NCBI RefSeq assembly: GCF_000285295.1
Contig: NZ_CADP01000028.1
Location: 1-35,000, forward strand
Length of the DNA: 35,000 nt
From: Komagataeibacter europaeus LMG 18890
Lineage (GTDB): Bacteria > Pseudomonadota > Alphaproteobacteria > Acetobacterales > Acetobacteraceae
Direction of reading: 5' to 3'
Notes under the pieces: generated by a model
What the model was told of the DNA's origin: nothing
The model's input: only the letters and a program-made list of their open reading frames with translations
The model's database searches: none
In this document: one piece after another, positions 3,078-21,838 of the stretch
How the letters are laid out: each line of letters begins with the position of its first letter
Position numbering within the stretch: position 1 is the stretch's first letter
Made by a program: the position numbers and the translations under genes

Positions 3078-3842
3078 TCAGTAGGAAATCATCTGGTCAA
3101 GGAAATCCCGCGCGCGCTGCGTCCTGGGGTTTGTGAAGAATTCGGCCGGGGGCGTGATTTCCAGAATACGGCCCTTGTCCATGAAGATGATGCGGTCGGC
3201 GATATGCCGCGCAAACCCCATTTCATGGGTGACGCACAGGGTGGTTATGCCCTGCTGCGCAAGGTCGTTCATGATCCCGACCACGCCCGAAATCGCTTCG
3301 GGGTCCAGGGCCGCGGTCGGTTCGTCAAACAGCATGACCTCGGGCTGCATGCACAATGCGCGCGCGATCGCCACGCGCTGCTGCTGCCCACCCGATAGCT
3401 GGATGGGGTATTTGTTGGCCTGCTCGGCGATATTGACCTGCCGCAGGAATCGCATGGCCATTTCCTCCGCATCGGCGCGCGGGGTTTTCTTGACCAGGCG
3501 GGGGGCCAGCGTGCAGTTGTCCAGTACGCTCAGATGCGGGAACAGATTGTAGTTCTGGAACACCAGACCGACTGTTGCACGCAGTTGCGTAAGGTCGGTC
3601 TGCGCATTGATGACCCGGCCATCAATGCTCAGGATGCCGCTGTCATGCGGTTCGATGCGGTTGAAGCAGCGGATCAGCGTTGACTTGCCCGAACCGGACG
3701 GTCCCAGCACGACAATCTTTTCCCCGCGCTGCACATCGAAGCTGATCCGGTCGAGTGCGATGAAATCCTTGTACAGCTTGCTCAGGTTACGTACCGAAAT
3801 CATGGCCGACGGGTCCGGCATGGTCTTGGGATCAGGATTCAT
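3078..3842 (-). CDS. Polar amino acid ABC transporter, ATP-binding protein (GlnQ/HisP type)
   Basis: A 254-residue cytoplasmic ATPase that drives import of an amino acid or related compound. All motifs are present in order: Walker A GPSGSGKST, Q-loop VFQNYNLFPH, signature LSGGQQQR, Walker B VMLFDEP and switch His in VTHEMGFA. Length and the FPHLSVLDN segment fit the GlnQ/HisP/ArtP family. The start at 3842 is preferred: it overlaps the end of the upstream binding-protein/permease gene by 11 bp, has AAGGCG upstream, and gives the usual family length. The frame can be extended to 3890. Overlap with the partner gene implies translational coupling. The substrate is not determined; the neighbouring deiminase and carbamoylase suggest a guanidino or ureido amino acid. 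Confidence 0.9.
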   Translation of the reverse strand: MNPDPKTMPDPSAMISVRNLSKLYKDFIALDRISFDVQRGEKIVVLGPSGSGKSTLIRCFNRIEPHDSGILSIDGRVINAQTDLTQLRATVGLVFQNYNLFPHLSVLDNCTLAPRLVKKTPRADAEEMAMRFLRQVNIAEQANKYPIQLSGGQQQRVAIARALCMQPEVMLFDEPTAALDPEAISGVVGIMNDLAQQGITTLCVTHEMGFARHIADRIIFMDKGRILEITPPAEFFTNPRTQRARDFLDQMISY

Positions 3843-5412
3843 TTGCGGTCGCCTTGTGACGGTCAGCCCATGCAAAACGGCGTTCAACACGTTTCTGCAG
3901 AAACAGGAAGAAGAAAACCATGGCGAGGTAATATACCAGCGCCGCAGCGTAATATTCCGTGAACTCGAACGTGCGCGCCACCTGGATCTGGGTCACCGCC
4001 AGCAGTTCCTGAAGCGAGATGACGGATGCCAGCGACGTGGTTTTCAGCAGGCTTATGAATTCATTGATGGTCGGCGGCAGCGCAATGCGCAGCGCCTGCG
4101 GGAAGATGACATGGCGGTACACCTGCCGCCGGGACATGGCCAGCGCGTCTCCAGCCAGTTCCTGTCCCTTGTCCACCGCGCCCAGGGCCGCGCGGTTGAT
4201 TTCGACCTGATAGGCGGATTCGTTGATCGACAGCGACAGCCATGTGGCCAGGAAGGGGGTAAACCATGCCTCGCGGAAGATCGGCAGGAACTGCGGCAGC
4301 GCATTCCATATGAACAGCAGCTGCAGCAGCGTCGGCGCACCACGGAATACCGATACATATCCCTTCAGCGCCATCTTGAGCAGCGAGTCCCGCCCGTTCA
4401 GCGCCAGCGCCATCGGGATCGAGATCATGATGGCGGTAAAATGCGACAGGACGGCAACCGCCAGCGTGATGAACGCGCCGCGCATGAAGGCGGCCGATGT
4501 CAGCGCGGAAAAGAACGTATCCCATCGGAACATCGGGGGGGCGGGCGTGTTGGCCAGCGCCTTGGCCGCATCAGGGGAAATGGCCCATTTCTTCTGGATT
4601 GCCGCCATCTGCCCGTTCTGGCCCATGGTGGCGATGGCCTGTTCCAGCAGTTCGCGGTCATGCGCGTTCTTGCGGATATACAGCGCGAAATGCCGGTATT
4701 CGGGATAGGGCGGCACCAGGATGACGCTGACCTTTCCGTGCAGCTGCTCCTGCCGGTAGTACAGCTCCACATCCTGGCTGGCGAAGGCGAAAACGCGACC
4801 GATCAGCACCTGCTGCACCACCTGGTCCTCGGTCGGGTACTGCTGGATGATGATGGGCGCGCGACCGGCTTTGGCCAGTGCCTCGTTTTCCTGCGCCAGA
4901 CGGGCGCTGTAGCTGGTGCCCGACTGCACGGCCACCGTCTTGCCCGACAGGTCGGCCATGCTGGACAGGCGGGGCGTGCCGGCGCGCGCCACGACCACCA
5001 GGGCGGTATCCTGATAGGATATGGCGTCAAAATTCTTCTCGCGCTCCGGCAGCTTGATGATGCCACTGGCCACCATCGAGCATCGCTGCGCCGCAAGGCT
5101 GGGGAACAGGCCGGTAAAGTCCATGGTCGTCACAACCATGGGCACATGCCAGTAATCCGCCAGCCGGTGGGCGATGTCCATGTCGATCCCGTCCACGGCG
5201 TTGACATCGGTGCCATTCACGAATGTCATCGGTGGCAGGGTGGGGTTGGTACAGACGGTCAGCGTACCGTCATGGATGAAGCCGGGCAGGTCGGGTTCTG
5301 CGGCCTGTGCGCTACCCGCAATGGCCAGCACCCCGGCAAGGGCCGCCGCCAGCGCACGGGGGCGGAAGCGGGAAGAACAGCGGCGCATGAACCGCGCCAT
5401 GGAATGGGTCAT
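3832..5412 (-). CDS. Fused substrate-binding protein / permease of an amino-acid ABC importer
   Basis: A 526-residue protein joining two normally separate subunits. Residues 1-37 are a signal sequence or membrane anchor (ending AQA|AE). Residues ~45-280 are a family 3 solute-binding domain: R124 in LPEREKNFDA fits the alpha-carboxylate-binding Arg, and D214 in ASQDVE fits the ligand amino-group Asp. Residues ~300-510 are a HisM/GlnP-type permease with several membrane segments and the EAA loop (GDALAMSRRQVYRHVIFPQA, ~421-440) that contacts the ATPase. GGAG lies 8 bases before the ATG. The ATPase gene follows with an 11-bp overlap, and the LysR gene lies 65 bp upstream on the same strand. Such fusions are known in the polar amino acid family (for example in lactic acid bacteria) but are uncommon in Proteobacteria. 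Tethering keeps the receptor at the transporter mouth. Confidence 0.9.
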   Translation of the reverse strand: MTHSMARFMRRCSSRFRPRALAAALAGVLAIAGSAQAAEPDLPGFIHDGTLTVCTNPTLPPMTFVNGTDVNAVDGIDMDIAHRLADYWHVPMVVTTMDFTGLFPSLAAQRCSMVASGIIKLPEREKNFDAISYQDTALVVVARAGTPRLSSMADLSGKTVAVQSGTSYSARLAQENEALAKAGRAPIIIQQYPTEDQVVQQVLIGRVFAFASQDVELYYRQEQLHGKVSVILVPPYPEYRHFALYIRKNAHDRELLEQAIATMGQNGQMAAIQKKWAISPDAAKALANTPAPPMFRWDTFFSALTSAAFMRGAFITLAVAVLSHFTAIMISIPMALALNGRDSLLKMALKGYVSVFRGAPTLLQLLFIWNALPQFLPIFREAWFTPFLATWLSLSINESAYQVEINRAALGAVDKGQELAGDALAMSRRQVYRHVIFPQALRIALPPTINEFISLLKTTSLASVISLQELLAVTQIQVARTFEFTEYYAAALVYYLAMVFFFLFLQKRVERRFAWADRHKATANES

Positions 5413-16978: not shown

Positions 16979-17413
16979 TTATTTCCCGCGCCCCGTCATG
17001 GCCTTGAACAGGTTCCAAACCGCCCGGCCGGTATGGCGGGTCAGCGGACCGGCAACCGTGGTGGCCACGGCGGACAGGGCAACGGTCTGCCGCAGTTCGT
17101 TCAAGGCGTGTTCACGCGCGAATCGCACGCGGATTTCCTCCGGCGTCATGTAGGAGCGCCGCCCCATGACCAGCCCCATGATAACTACCAGAAGATCCGC
17201 CCCGAATACGGCCGCAGCCGAACCAAGGGCGCTGAAGCCCATTGTCTGGTAACAGAAGGCCCACAGCAGCCCATGGCCCGAGATGACTGCGAAAAAAGCA
17301 AAGATAGCCGCCACAACCAGGAATGCAGCCTGACGACCAAGACGGATCGCCATCAGCTTGCGTAGGGTCAGTTCCCCTTCAATGATGGTTTTACCGATTT
17401 CGCCTATTCTCAT
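16979..17413 (-). CDS. YqjE-like / phage-holin superfamily III-type membrane protein
   Basis: A 144-residue protein with two adjacent membrane segments (~28-52, AAFLVVAAIFAFFAVISG, and ~58-82, ALGSAAAVFGADLLVVIMG). They are flanked by a basic N-terminus (ELTLRKLMAIRLGRQ) and a charged C-terminal helix. This layout fits the YqjE/DUF1469 group. It lies 40 bp downstream of a DUF883 (YqjD/ElaB-like) gene, the same partnership as in the E. coli yqjD-yqjE operon. AGGAT lies about 11 bases before the ATG. YqjD-type proteins bind ribosomes at the inner membrane in stationary phase; the function of the YqjE partner is not established. Confidence 0.7.
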   Translation of the reverse strand: MRIGEIGKTIIEGELTLRKLMAIRLGRQAAFLVVAAIFAFFAVISGHGLLWAFCYQTMGFSALGSAAAVFGADLLVVIMGLVMGRRSYMTPEEIRVRFAREHALNELRQTVALSAVATTVAGPLTRHTGRAVWNLFKAMTGRGK

Positions 17414-17810: not shown

Positions 17811-18926
17811 ATGTCTCCTTTCTCCATTCGGCTGGTTGTCAACGCGCTCCGGGCCTTTTCCGGTGCGCCGGGCCTGTCTTTTTCTGCCGCGGCGGGCACG
17901 TGCCTGACGGTTGTCAATGACAGGGCCGACTGCCTGTGCGTGCTGGCGGACATGCTGGCGGGCCATGCGCCCGCCTGGGGGGGGCAGGTCATGGTTGACG
18001 GGATTGACGTGACCGGCCTGCCGCCCGACCGGCGGCCATGCGCGCTGGTGGGATGGCGCGATCCGCTGTTCGCCCACATGACGGTTCAGGCCAACCTGGC
18101 CTTTGCGCTGCGCGCGCGGGGGGAGGAATCGCACGCCGTGGCGGCACGGGTGCGCGCCGTGCTGGCGCTGCTGGGGCTGGATGGGCTGGAACATGCCCGC
18201 CCCGCCACCCTTTCGCCCGAACAGGCGCTGCGTGTCATGATTGGCCGCGTCCTGGTGTTCGAACCGCCCGTCCTGGTGCTGGACGACCCGTTTACCCTCC
18301 TGCCGCCCGCGGGGCGCGTGGCCATGCGGCGTCTGGTCAGCCGGCTGGTGCGCGCGCGCGGCCTGTGCGTGGTGCTGCTGACGCGTGAGCGTGAGGATGC
18401 GCTGCTGCTGGGTGATGCCATCGCCTATATGGATGGCATGGAGATCGTGCAGCTTGGTACGGCGCTGGACCTGTTCGACCGTCCCGCGTGTGACCGGGTG
18501 GCGACCGGGTTTGGCCATGCCAACAGCCTGACAGCCCGCGTGGCCAGTGTCGATGATGACGTGGCCCTTGCCCACCTGCCCGGTGGCCTGCCGGTCGAAG
18601 CCATGGCGGCGCCGGGGGTGGAAGCGGACCAGCTGGCCACGCTGTGCATCCGGCCGGACCGGATCGCGGTCATGTTTCCCTCACGTCCCGGCATGGCGGG
18701 GGGCGCCGACCCCGACGGGCCGCCAGTGCTGGAGGCGACCCTGATGGACATGCGGCAGATGGGCGATCATGTGCTGCTGCGTTTCAGGCTGGCGAATGGG
18801 GAGGAACTGCTGGCGCGCCGTCCGCCCACCCCCGCCCTGCAGCGCGTGGCGGCAGGGCAGGTGGCCATGCTGGCGTGGCAGCCGGGGCAGGCAATTGCCT
18901 TTCCGTTCCGTGGTGAAATGGGGTAG
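17811..18926 (+). CDS. Catalytically degenerate PotA-like ABC ATPase with TOBE domain
   Basis: A 371-residue protein with PotA/CysA architecture: a nucleotide-binding domain (~1-235) and a C-terminal TOBE-type domain (~235-371, with GFGHANSL, CIRPDRIAV and MLAWQPGQAIAF). The landmarks align, but every catalytic motif is altered. The Walker A position reads VVNDRADCL (34-42) with no GK(S/T). The Q-loop is GWRDPLFAHMTV without Gln. The signature is LSPEQ (134-138) instead of LSGGQ. Walker B ends LDDP with Asp for the catalytic Glu, and the switch His is Arg (R192 in LLTRERED). It is first in an operon with a PotD-like protein and a short permease. The frame is intact with normal GC-rich codon use, so it is not an ordinary pseudogene; ATP hydrolysis is very unlikely. 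Confidence 0.85.
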   Translation: MSPFSIRLVVNALRAFSGAPGLSFSAAAGTCLTVVNDRADCLCVLADMLAGHAPAWGGQVMVDGIDVTGLPPDRRPCALVGWRDPLFAHMTVQANLAFALRARGEESHAVAARVRAVLALLGLDGLEHARPATLSPEQALRVMIGRVLVFEPPVLVLDDPFTLLPPAGRVAMRRLVSRLVRARGLCVVLLTREREDALLLGDAIAYMDGMEIVQLGTALDLFDRPACDRVATGFGHANSLTARVASVDDDVALAHLPGGLPVEAMAAPGVEADQLATLCIRPDRIAVMFPSRPGMAGGADPDGPPVLEATLMDMRQMGDHVLLRFRLANGEELLARRPPTPALQRVAAGQVAMLAWQPGQAIAFPFRGEMG

Positions 18927-18970
18927 CGTCCGGCATTCTTCGCCCCTGCCTGAAGGATTGTTTCCTGTCC

Positions 18971-19990
18971 GTGTTCCAGTCTGCGTCCCGTTCCCGCATC
19001 CGTATCGGCCTGTTCTGCCTGCTGGTGGCCCCCTCCGTCTGGTCCGCCCCGGCTATTGCTGCGACCCCCGTGCGGCACAAGGCTGCCCTTGTGGTCGCGA
19101 GTACAGAGTCGCAAATGACGCAGGCGCAGAATGCGGCCTTCCTCCAGCCTTTCGCGCGGGCGTCCCGCCAGCCGGTGGTGCGGCAGGCATGGAACGGCAC
19201 CCTGGCGGAACTGGACGGGCATGGGTTGCATGCGGGGCGCACGGGTACATGGTCACTGGTCTTTGCCGAGGACACCACCATCCGCGCCGCCTGCGTGCGC
19301 GAACTGGTCATTCACCTGGCTGGTAGCGCCACCAACCCCGACGGGTGCGGCGTGCCGGGCATGACAGCCCAGGTGGTGGTGGCATGGGACCAGACACGGC
19401 GCAGGCTTGCGCCACGCTGGGCCGATTTCTGGGATATCGTGCGTTTTCCCGGCAAGCGTGGTCTGCGGCGTGACCCGCGTACCACGCTGGAAATCGCGCT
19501 GATGGCCGATGGCGTGGCGCCGGGTGATGTCTATAACCAGCTTGCCACCCCGCAGGGTGTCGATCGCGCCTTTCGCAAGCTGAGCCAGCTTCGCCCCTAT
19601 ATCACGTGGTGGTCCACCCCGGCGGACGCCACCAGCATCCTTGAACGCGGGCAGGTGCTGATGGGCAGCGCGCCCGGTGACGCGGTGCGCAGCATTGCCA
19701 CACGCTACAGGGACAGGATCGGCATCAATACGGACATGGCGCTGTCCTATGGCCTGTCATGGGGTGTGGTGGCCGGACAGTCGGCTTTCCGGCTGGGGCA
19801 GGCGCGCAACCTGCTGCACTTTATCATCCAGCCCGACCAGCAGGCCGCGTTCCTTGCGCGCTATCCCGCCGCAACGCCGCCCGCATCCCTGCCTGCGTCC
19901 GTGGCGTTGCCGGTGGATGTGCAGTTCTGGCAGGCACACTATCCGGACCTGTCACGCCGCTTTGACACATGGTTGCGGGATGCGGGCTGA
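18971..19990 (+). CDS. Extracellular solute-binding protein, PotD/PotF-like (family 1)
   Basis: A 339-residue periplasmic protein. It begins with GTG at 18971 and has a signal peptide ending AIAA|TP. AAGGA is present but about 13 bases upstream. The segment APRWADFWDIVRFPGKRGLR, followed by TTLEIALMADGV and a later ITWWSTPADATSILERGQV, is the hallmark of polyamine/thiamine/iron-type binding proteins, where FPGKR leads to the ligand cleft. It lies 44 bp after the degenerate ATPase gene, and its TGA shares one base with the ATG of the short permease gene (TGATG). Whether it still binds a polyamine-like ligand cannot be judged; without a working ATPase it cannot feed a normal importer unless it borrows one. 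Confidence 0.85.
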   Translation: MFQSASRSRIRIGLFCLLVAPSVWSAPAIAATPVRHKAALVVASTESQMTQAQNAAFLQPFARASRQPVVRQAWNGTLAELDGHGLHAGRTGTWSLVFAEDTTIRAACVRELVIHLAGSATNPDGCGVPGMTAQVVVAWDQTRRRLAPRWADFWDIVRFPGKRGLRRDPRTTLEIALMADGVAPGDVYNQLATPQGVDRAFRKLSQLRPYITWWSTPADATSILERGQVLMGSAPGDAVRSIATRYRDRIGINTDMALSYGLSWGVVAGQSAFRLGQARNLLHFIIQPDQQAAFLARYPAATPPASLPASVALPVDVQFWQAHYPDLSRRFDTWLRDAG

Positions 19991-20454
19991 TGCTGCCTGA
20001 TCTTGCCGTCCGCCCGGCTGCAGTGATGGGGCTGGATGGAGCCTGTATCGCACTGGGTCTTGTGGTGGCATGCGGGCTGGTACTGGTAGTGCATGTGATG
20101 CTGTACCGGGCATGGCCCGCGTGGTGCGTGCTGCTGCGCGGGATGCTGCTTTGCCTGTTGTTGCCGGGACTGGGTCTGGCGGTATGGTGGCCATGCCTTA
20201 CGCATGGTGGCGGTGTGGCGGGATGTCTCATGCAGGGCCTGTGTATCGCGCCCGCCGCGATGTGGCCGCTGCTGCGGGTGCTGGACCGGATTCCGCCGGG
20301 CCTGTCACGCACGGCCGGCGGTCTGGGGGCGGACGCGAACATGCGTTTTCGGCTGCTCTGGCTGCCGCTGCTGGGCCTGCCGGTGGCTGGGGTGATGGCG
20401 TTTTCGTTCGGTATGATCGCGCTATGCGCCATGGCGGCAGTGGCCGCGCATTGA
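19990..20454 (+). CDS. Short PotB/PotC-like ABC permease remnant or minimal permease
   Basis: A 154-residue membrane protein, about half the usual 260-300. It has roughly four hydrophobic segments (~14-38, ~46-66, ~75-95, ~124-152). A recognisable EAA-type cytoplasmic loop, LSRTAGGLGADANMRF then RLLWLPLLG (~108-130), matches the canonical EAA---G-----F-----LP, with Glu replaced by Arg. The start at 19990 is translationally coupled to the upstream binding-protein stop. The N-terminal half of a normal permease is missing and no remnant is visible nearby. Codon usage is like its neighbours. It could be a relic, or one half of a reduced transmembrane domain. Confidence 0.7.
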   Translation: MLPDLAVRPAAVMGLDGACIALGLVVACGLVLVVHVMLYRAWPAWCVLLRGMLLCLLLPGLGLAVWWPCLTHGGGVAGCLMQGLCIAPAAMWPLLRVLDRIPPGLSRTAGGLGADANMRFRLLWLPLLGLPVAGVMAFSFGMIALCAMAAVAAH

Positions 20455-20489: not shown

Positions 20490-20978
20490 ATGACAGATGA
20501 GACACCGCCATTTTGGGAAACGACACCCCTTGAGCAGATGTCTACCACGCAGTGGGAGTCGCTGTGCGATGGATGCGGCCGGTGCTGCCTGCACAAGCTG
20601 CGCGAGGACGAGACGGACGAAGTCCTGTTTACCGATGTCGCCTGTCGCCTGCTGGATACCACGTCCTGTTTGTGTACCGATTATGAACACCGCCAGCGCC
20701 GGGTGCAGGACTGTATCAGCCTGACGCCAGAAATGCTGGCGGATATCGACTGGCTGCCGCCAACCTGTGGGTATGTGCTGGTGCGTGATGGGGAGCCGTT
20801 GCCATGGTGGCACCCGCTGGTGTCCGGCACCCGTGACACGGTGCATGAGGCAGGCGTGTCCGTAAGCGGCAGGGTGATCAGTGAACGCAAGGCGGGCATG
20901 CTGGAGGACCATGTGGTTGACTGGCCGGGTGAAGCCCCGCGGGATGCATTCTGCCGCACGCGTCCGCCCCGGCGCTGA
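20490..20978 (+). CDS. YcgN/UPF0260-family cysteine cluster protein
   Basis: A 162-residue cytoplasmic protein. Its N-terminal half carries a metal- or Fe-S-type cysteine cluster: C26, C29, C32 and C33 in CDGCGRCC, then C52, C60, C62 and C75. The C-terminal half contains LPWWHPLVSG and a GEAP ending typical of UPF0260/YcgN. AGGA lies 9 bases before the ATG. It starts 35 bp after the short permease gene and may be cotranscribed, but it is a widely conserved proteobacterial gene found in many contexts. The biochemical function of the family is not established. Confidence 0.9.
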   Translation: MTDETPPFWETTPLEQMSTTQWESLCDGCGRCCLHKLREDETDEVLFTDVACRLLDTTSCLCTDYEHRQRRVQDCISLTPEMLADIDWLPPTCGYVLVRDGEPLPWWHPLVSGTRDTVHEAGVSVSGRVISERKAGMLEDHVVDWPGEAPRDAFCRTRPPRR

Positions 20979-21133: not shown

Positions 21134-21838
21134 GTGACAGCCGGAACGGAGGTCGTGCCCATCGCGTCCGGGCAGGTCACGGTCTGCTGGCGGGCGTCGC
21201 GTCAGGCGCGGCGTATTTCCATGCGGATCGATCCACGTAGCGGGCATGTCGTCATTACCCTGCCGCGCGGCGCGCGGCGGACGGATGGGCTGGCGCTGCT
21301 GCGCGCGCATTCCGCATGGGTGGCGGCGGGGCTGTCACGCCTGCCGCCGCCTGTTGACCTGTGCCATGGCGGCCATGTCGTGCTGGATGGGCGGCGCCAT
21401 GAAATCCGCCACTGTCCCGACGCACGGCGTGGCGTATGGCTGGAAGACGGGGTGCTGCATGTCAGCGGTGCTGAAGAATTCGTCCCCCGCCGCGTCAGCG
21501 CCTACCTGCGCGCACAGGCGCAGGCCCGCCTGCCCGCCCGCCTGTGCGCACAGGCCGAATCCTGCGGCTTGAAACCGACACAGGTCAGGCTGCGCGATAC
21601 GAAAAGCCGGTGGGGCAGCTGTTCATCCGATGGGTCGATCATGCTGTGCTGGCGGCTGGTCATGGCGCCGCTGGAGGTGCAGCATTACATCATTGCCCAT
21701 GAACTCGCGCATCTGCAGCACATGAATCATGGGCCGGATTTCTGGTTGCTGGTGGACCGGCTGACCCCGCACAGGCGTCAGGCCGAAAAATGGCTGCATG
21801 ACCATGGCGCCAGCCTGCACCGGATCGCCCCGGTCTAA
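21134..21838 (+). CDS. YgjP-like (DUF45 / M48-type) metallopeptidase domain protein
   Basis: A 234-residue protein with the UPF0758-unrelated YgjP architecture. The N-terminal beta-rich region (ARRISMRIDPRSGHVVITLP) is typical of the family. Then come the conserved DTKSRWGSCSSDGSIMLCWRL (residues 155-174) and a gluzincin motif: H189, E190 and H193 in HELAHLQH, with H199 in NHGPDFW. It starts with GTG at 21134, with AGGGAC 5 bases upstream. These proteins are predicted Zn proteases, often located near restriction or housekeeping genes, and their substrates are unknown. The gene stands alone, and converges on the NAD kinase gene 28 bp beyond its stop. Confidence 0.9.
   Translation: MTAGTEVVPIASGQVTVCWRASRQARRISMRIDPRSGHVVITLPRGARRTDGLALLRAHSAWVAAGLSRLPPPVDLCHGGHVVLDGRRHEIRHCPDARRGVWLEDGVLHVSGAEEFVPRRVSAYLRAQAQARLPARLCAQAESCGLKPTQVRLRDTKSRWGSCSSDGSIMLCWRLVMAPLEVQHYIIAHELAHLQHMNHGPDFWLLVDRLTPHRRQAEKWLHDHGASLHRIAPV

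Follow-up and report, generated by a model that had tools for sequence, protein, structure and literature searches.

An acetic acid bacterial locus encoding a binding protein, a Pot-type ATPase without catalytic motifs and a half-size permease

Introduction

The closest described counterpart of the locus considered here is the PotABCD-type spermidine/putrescine importer (E. coli PotABC, 8zx1/8y5f), an ATP-binding cassette (ABC) system with an ATPase that joins a nucleotide-binding domain (NBD) to a TOBE domain and carries the Walker A, Q-loop, LSGGQ, Walker B glutamate and switch histidine motifs, two full-length permeases with an EAA coupling loop, and a periplasmic binding protein encoded in the operon. 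The same kinds of genes stand together in a stretch of 35,000 nucleotides from Komagataeibacter europaeus LMG 18890 (assembly GCF_000285295.1, contig NZ_CADP01000028.1, positions 1 to 35,000, forward strand; hereafter the window), and we refer to them as A (ATPase-like), S (solute-binding protein) and P (permease-like). A is predicted to be a full PotA-like protein with NBD and TOBE domain, P resembles part of PotC, and S belongs to the SBP_bac_8 family. In contrast to PotABCD, A-S-P lacks two defining features, the ATPase motif set and the pair of full permeases (only P, of 154 amino acids (aa), adjoins S), and there are other loci at which S stands without the other two genes. The parts nevertheless look descended from such an importer, and the role of A-S-P is probably not pumping.

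Pseudoenzymes are well known among kinases. Among ABC proteins, CFTR, TAP and RbsA-like proteins have one degenerate ATP site and keep the NBD fold, and one site or half is still active; A, in contrast, is the only NBD of its operon and is degenerate throughout. To our knowledge, no importer that depends on a binding protein has been described in which the sole ATPase is catalytically dead over many genera. The canonical, half-degenerate and fully degenerate forms described below, together with genomes that keep S alone, constitute a natural series for the study of ABC function without ATP and of what the TOBE domain is for, and the hosts include tractable acetic acid bacteria. In the portions of the open-access literature reached by narrow term searches, nothing relevant was found on pseudo-ATPase or inactive ABC importers, and no relevant description of the locus in acetic acid bacteria. 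The main texts of two G. oxydans screens, searched by terms, gave no match in one case and only an unrelated transporter and a reference in the other; a Bombella intestini paper, in the part available, names a polyamine ATP-binding protein that could not be linked to the A-S-P locus.

Results and Discussion

Loss of the catalytic residues

A preliminary description, made from the letters of the window, had claimed that A has lost its ATPase motifs, and alignment with a canonical relative bears this out: VVNDRADCL stands at the Walker A place, LSPEQ at the signature, LDDP at the catalytic glutamate, arginine at the switch histidine and tryptophan at the Q-loop glutamine (Table 1). The architecture of a Pot-type ATPase, NBD plus TOBE, is present in A, and its motif set is absent. 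Across the acetic-acid-bacteria clade of the Acetobacteraceae, seven residues were scored in 71 rows of A from loci that also carry the downstream gene Y1; the two split copies at L134 and L139 are included, some rows are close strains, some genomes may repeat a species, and six known duplicates were dropped (L and G numbers denote loci and genomes). The Walker A lysine occurs in no row (one gap), nor do the first glycine of the signature and the catalytic glutamate. The Q-loop glutamine occurs once (L116; one gap), the switch histidine once (L109), the signature serine in 25 rows and the Walker B aspartate in 39, and never more than two of the seven residues coincide in a row. In many same-genus relatives LED replaces the LDD of the window, so that the Walker B aspartate has changed there too. 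Moreover, each of the 71 rows has an arginine after the signature, and 49 of them have the tripeptide RDP at the Q-loop place. The catalytic residues have thus been lost across the clade, and a conserved non-ATPase state is well supported.

The Walker B aspartate of the 39 rows, the invariant arginine and an NBD fold that is predicted to be intact might suggest that A still binds nucleotide in an unusual manner and drives weak transport. We consider this very improbable, because no lysine is found in the 70 rows with a letter at the Walker A position, none of the 71 rows has the catalytic glutamate, and P amounts to about half a permease.

Distribution of the locus

The search for A covered 18 same-genus relatives and found it in every one. 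The fetched stretches show A, S and P present and open in 17; in the other, G001, A is truncated by the contig end and the stretch does not reach S and P. A scan of genomes with a profile of S gave at least 580 confirmed places, of which the best 80 were used, a set that leans to the closest relatives, and 39 further regions of the family, later joined by 15 from small-genome genera, were scanned for gene order; L198, a piece of only 100 bases, was left aside. Among the regions scanned, the order H-A-S-P-Y1-Y2 recurs in Komagataeibacter, Novacetimonas, Gluconacetobacter, Nguyenibacter, Acetobacter, Acidomonas, Asaia, Brytella, Gluconobacter, Lichenicoccus and further genera, and the loci without Y1 are mostly other relatives of S. 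Therefore, the motif-less state spans many genera of the family and is supported as neither strain-specific nor recent decay.

S and Y1 occur together at 76 loci (six duplicates dropped). P is present at 72 of these and A is missing at five, namely L084, whose sequence begins at a contig edge close to S, and L185, L192, L193 and L195, which are also without P. Where A, S and Y1 occur together (71 loci), the frame of A is open and at least 330 aa long at 69, the exceptions being L134 and L139 with A in two frames, and its identity to the window protein falls to 34% among the pairwise comparisons. The length of P is 133-186 aa in 62 relatives (with script-chosen starts) and 109 aa in L107. In 299 genomes of the family, a profile of P gave 50 matches at E 5.5e-17 or better, followed by a gap to 2e-14, from which longer open permease frames are matched; the gap is not clean, as the short P of G019 (L051) scores 6e-9 and a match in G158 6e-8. 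The reach of the profile to longer permeases favors a homology between P and ordinary permeases. At L114 (7026-8452) and L118 (7050-8360), about 1.3-1.4 kb lie between S and P, and P still adjoins Y1. We read this gap as an insertion or rearrangement that parted A-S from P-Y1-Y2, with an antisense gene recognized in it by eye; an extra permease was considered and rejected, since no permease frame was found between S and P among the forward frames.

Selection and the position of the constraint

Ratios of nonsynonymous to synonymous substitution (dN/dS) were calculated by the Nei-Gojobori method for the 153 pairs of 18 same-genus genomes, the window included. The medians are 0.201 for A, 0.315 for S and 0.425 for P, and 0.086, 0.169 and 0.120 for the neighbours Y1, Y2 and H, respectively. 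Because its ratio is the lowest, A is the most constrained of the three genes, although it is still less constrained than Y1 and H. The operon had been proposed to be kept rather than undergoing recent decay. In accordance with this proposal, the close relatives share the motif losses and the short permease, and the medians of 0.20-0.43 lie well below 1, as under purifying selection within the genus of the window; strain-specific decay is thereby ruled out. The dN/dS near 1 and the disrupted frames of a pseudogene are likewise not what was found, given the 69 open frames of A among 71; A is split at three loci. The proposal is supported in part: the split copies and the lack of detected A and P at most small-genome loci (see below) speak against a fully stable role, and the ligand sensor, or regulator working with another transporter, that was suggested along with it is conjectural.

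Within A, the pooled dN/dS is 0.097 for the groove at the Q-loop, 0.156 from Walker B to the D-loop, 0.17 for TOBE, 0.203 for the signature, 0.231 for the P-loop and 0.234 for the NBD overall, the values of short segments being noisy (dS 0.5-1.0). Even the P-loop is thus not neutral within the genus of the window. Among 48 pseudo-ATPases, the mean conservation of the P-loop is 0.444, which is undercut only by the linker 291-306 (0.397). The groove (0.698) is the highest of the segments scored, with the helix after the signature at 0.686, Walker B at 0.657 and the signature at 0.600, and TOBE (0.637) exceeds the NBD (0.576). In the canonical rows used for comparison, which number only 11, the P-loop is highest (0.939), the signature and the groove stand at 0.926 and 0.883, and the two halves of TOBE are lowest (0.595 and 0.602). 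According to these two profiles, the change relative to canonical ATPases concerns the P-loop, which falls from the top almost to the bottom, and TOBE, which moves from a rank below the NBD to one above it. In P, the conservation of the coupling region is 0.636, compared with 0.40-0.50 in the other helices. That the A-P contact survives on both of its faces hints at a function more strongly than any other observation.

Small-genome loci with S but without detected A and P

In the small-genome genera, S was found at all 19 loci (in two frames in L208 and L210), and both A and P were undetected at 17 of them, the absence of A being judged within fetched stretches of about 9.5 kb. Both loci of genus g71 show A and P, with A split in L210 and intact in its sister L209. 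In L210, A and S are each in two frames, which indicates decay or an assembly error. At the syntenic locus, S stands without detected A or P in L185, L192, L193, L195, L206-L208 and L211-L220, and in g65 and g124 Y1 and Y2 are also undetected near S. The profile of P, the one of the two that was run genome-wide, gave no match at E 1e-6 in G074, G082, G102, G111, G141 and G142 and a single weak one (5.6e-7) in G031.

An RpoB tree was built for 30 genomes; of the 23 among them that were scored for A and P, 16 have the pair and 7 do not. Six of the seven fall inside the clade in two starred or well-supported groups (G031 with G082, and G074, G102, G111 and G142), and G141 lies outside it; the fewest changes are three. 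This distribution suggests at least two losses of A and P inside the clade.

Proposed origin and role

The ATPases beside relatives of S outside the clade are canonical in L158, L187 and L194, and in L200 by the conservation-row filter; they are half-degenerate in L132, L179 and L188 and degenerate in L175 and L201. In L187 and L194, no permease follows S among the forward frames of the fetched stretch. In an ATPase tree, 17 rows that include the outside-clade ATPases stand apart from the pseudo-ATPases with support of 89/100, not starred; this tree is unrooted, and a direction from canonical to degenerate is what we infer. A quick tree of S, which carries long-branch warnings, served for orientation only, and its label of absence for L179 and L200 is an artefact, both having a match to A.

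We tentatively favor the view that A, S and P form an ATP-independent docking or sensing complex around S that descends from a once-normal importer, because the contact surfaces are retained and A and P are absent jointly. The ancestor would have been a normal binding-protein-dependent importer of the Pot/GABA (gamma-aminobutyric acid)/opine type. Before the acetic-acid-bacteria clade diversified, its ATPase would have lost the residues for ATP binding and hydrolysis, and in the same ancestral phase one permease would have been lost and the other cut to about 150 residues; this order and direction of events is our reconstruction. The docking surface, to which A contributes the Q-loop groove and P the EAA coupling helix, would have been retained together with the TOBE domain. 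The periplasmic ligand of S may be a small solute of the amine or amino-acid type, and P may use the retained coupling helix to hold A at the membrane. The output would then come from the TOBE domain of A, not from the NBD, and the putative complex would sense or regulate rather than pump. A more specific form, which appears doubtful to us, is an ATP-free receptor in which the half permease is a membrane dock only, the pseudo-ATPase with its TOBE domain is the working part, and S is able to act alone.

Several observations weigh against a retained function of A and P. The pair is dispensable, as its absence from 17 of 19 small-genome loci indicates. A is in two frames at L134, L139 and L210, and S at L134, L208 and L210, as a result of decay or assembly errors. 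At L167 (H-A-S), neither P nor Y1 is found by profile, and a 147-aa frame in the place of P has lost the GLGA core. Furthermore, P evolves fast, with pairwise dN/dS up to 0.69, and the pooled values of short segments are noisy, as noted above. The groove is well conserved in the canonical rows too, which indicates retention and not gain, and good conservation extends to the Walker B strand and to the helix behind the signature, as expected of a mere folded core.

These observations bear on the main rival, slow non-adaptive erosion, in which only S, perhaps with Y1 and Y2, would matter, and A and P would be leftovers that stay open for now through translational coupling in one operon. The dispensability of the pair, the split copies of A, the highest dN/dS of the three genes in P, the half-degenerate and degenerate ATPases outside the clade and the preservation of structural-core segments of A alongside the groove would all be expected of erosion. 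We nevertheless hold it to be unlikely, as A has the lowest ratio of the three genes, its frame is open at nearly all loci with A, S and Y1 down to 34% identity, and the P-loop is relaxed while the groove, the coupling helix and TOBE are kept.

Predicted structures and the binding protein

The AlphaFold2 model of A has a mean predicted local distance difference test (pLDDT) score of 92.1, and its best PDB match is PotA of E. coli PotABC (8zx1; template modelling score 0.85, 24% identity). The model of P (pLDDT 84.8) consists of four long helices and a short helix, 103-111, ahead of the last one. Its best match is PotC (8y5f), with a probability of 1.00 and an E of only 0.05; no match at E 0.001 or better was found in this structure search, and the fold match alone is weak. 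The EAA-like loop with arginine in place of glutamate, described earlier for the 154-residue permease, is indeed present, and the GLGA...LP core is kept.

The profile of S aligns with nine solved binding proteins over about 196-291 residues. These include proteins named for mannopine, GABA sensing, agropine and polyamines (4i1d, 3rpw, MotA 5l9g, mannopine 5l9s, GABA sensor 6dgv, 4eq7), and W-FWD-PGkR and aDGV blocks are seen in five of the alignments. S differs from the opine, GABA and polyamine binding proteins in having no working importer beside it. In P. aeruginosa (AgtS/AruS), binding proteins are encoded near sensor kinases, and in the part of the report available the tested interactions were not found (PMC11113362). 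The notion that a GABA-type binding protein serves in signalling is shared, whereas no sensor kinase is seen beside A-S-P.

Relatives of S also occur apart from canonical Pot importers. Outside the clade, several Acetobacteraceae have such a relative directly upstream of a set of the mlaE(STAS)-mlaF-mlaD type with a lipoprotein gene (by eye at L173, L176, L177, L178, L180, L184, L188, L199 and L201, where some stretches end at contig ends), and Pfam confirms the arrangement at L184 and L201. This suggests the recruitment of a Pot-type binding protein to an MCE lipid transport system at those loci; in the clade of the window, by contrast, S is accompanied by the pseudo-ATPase and the short P. 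Such an arrangement makes it conceivable that A and P are accessory to another active transporter, P or S cooperating with an ATPase or permeases from another locus, such as those of an MCE/Mla system, and the genome of the window does contain other ABC ATPases as well as 14 matches to the permease domain and 8 to the MCE domain. This alternative is improbable in our view. S is not beside MCE genes at the loci of the clade in the stretches scanned, and A is without the signature glycine needed to complete the ATP site of a partner. In addition, G074, G142, G111, G102 and G031 keep S and yet have 5-7 permease-domain and 0-2 SBP_bac_8 matches in all. Counts of permease-domain matches range from 5 to 10 among seven small genomes (G088 included) and reach 18 in G141, each of these small genomes has 0-2 SBP_bac_8 matches, and by these counts no obvious partner importer for S is seen in the small genomes.

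Gene layout of the locus

Frames and Pfam matches agree with the three intact, coupled plus-strand genes described at the outset, in the order ATPase, binding protein and permease (Table 1). A matches ABC_tran (39.2 bits) and TOBE_2 (44.4 bits), both over the cut-off, and S matches SBP_bac_8 (75.8 bits); P reaches only 13.6 bits with BPD_transp_1, under the cut-off of 26.4. None of the three has an internal stop. The stop of S and the start of P share one base (TGATG), as had been noticed, and the N-terminus of S, judged by eye, is signal-peptide-like, in keeping with a periplasmic binding protein.

Table 1. Features of the A-S-P locus and its neighbors (window coordinates)
Feature	Position	Strand	Length or basis
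A, pseudo-ATPase of Pot type (NBD + TOBE)	17811-18926	+	371 aa
S, solute-binding protein, GTG start	18971-19990	+	339 aa; SBP_bac_8
P, truncated PotC-like permease	19990-20454	+	154 aa
Walker A/P-loop place in A, residues 35-43, VVNDRADCL, without lysine	17913-17939	+	alignment
Q-loop/coupling groove place in A, residues 79-91, LVGWRDPLFAHMT	18045-18083	+	alignment
ABC signature place in A, residues 132-141, ATLSPEQALR	18204-18233	+	alignment
Walker B place in A, residues 153-160, PVLVLDDP, Asp for catalytic Glu	18267-18290	+	alignment
Switch histidine place in A, residues 186-193, Arg there	18366-18389	+	alignment
TOBE domain of A, residues 236-365	18516-18905	+	Pfam, conservation
EAA/coupling-helix region of P, residues 101-126	20290-20367	+	best conserved part of P
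Y1, CxxCxxCC (putative zinc/iron-chelating) protein, conserved downstream neighbor	20490-20978	+	
Y2, YgjP-like metallopeptidase-domain protein, conserved downstream neighbor	21134-21838	+	
H, small divergent upstream gene, marker of the syntenic locus	16979-17413	-	no Pfam match

The possibility that H is a phage holin-like protein was rejected as unsupported. Elsewhere in the window, positions 3078-5412 hold a separate ABC system of the amino-acid type, named by eye, with an ATPase (3078-3890, minus strand) whose motifs are intact and a fusion of binding protein and permease (3832-5412, minus strand). It is followed by a LysR-like regulator, an arginine-deiminase-fold-like protein and an amidase/hydantoinase-like protein, also recognized by eye.

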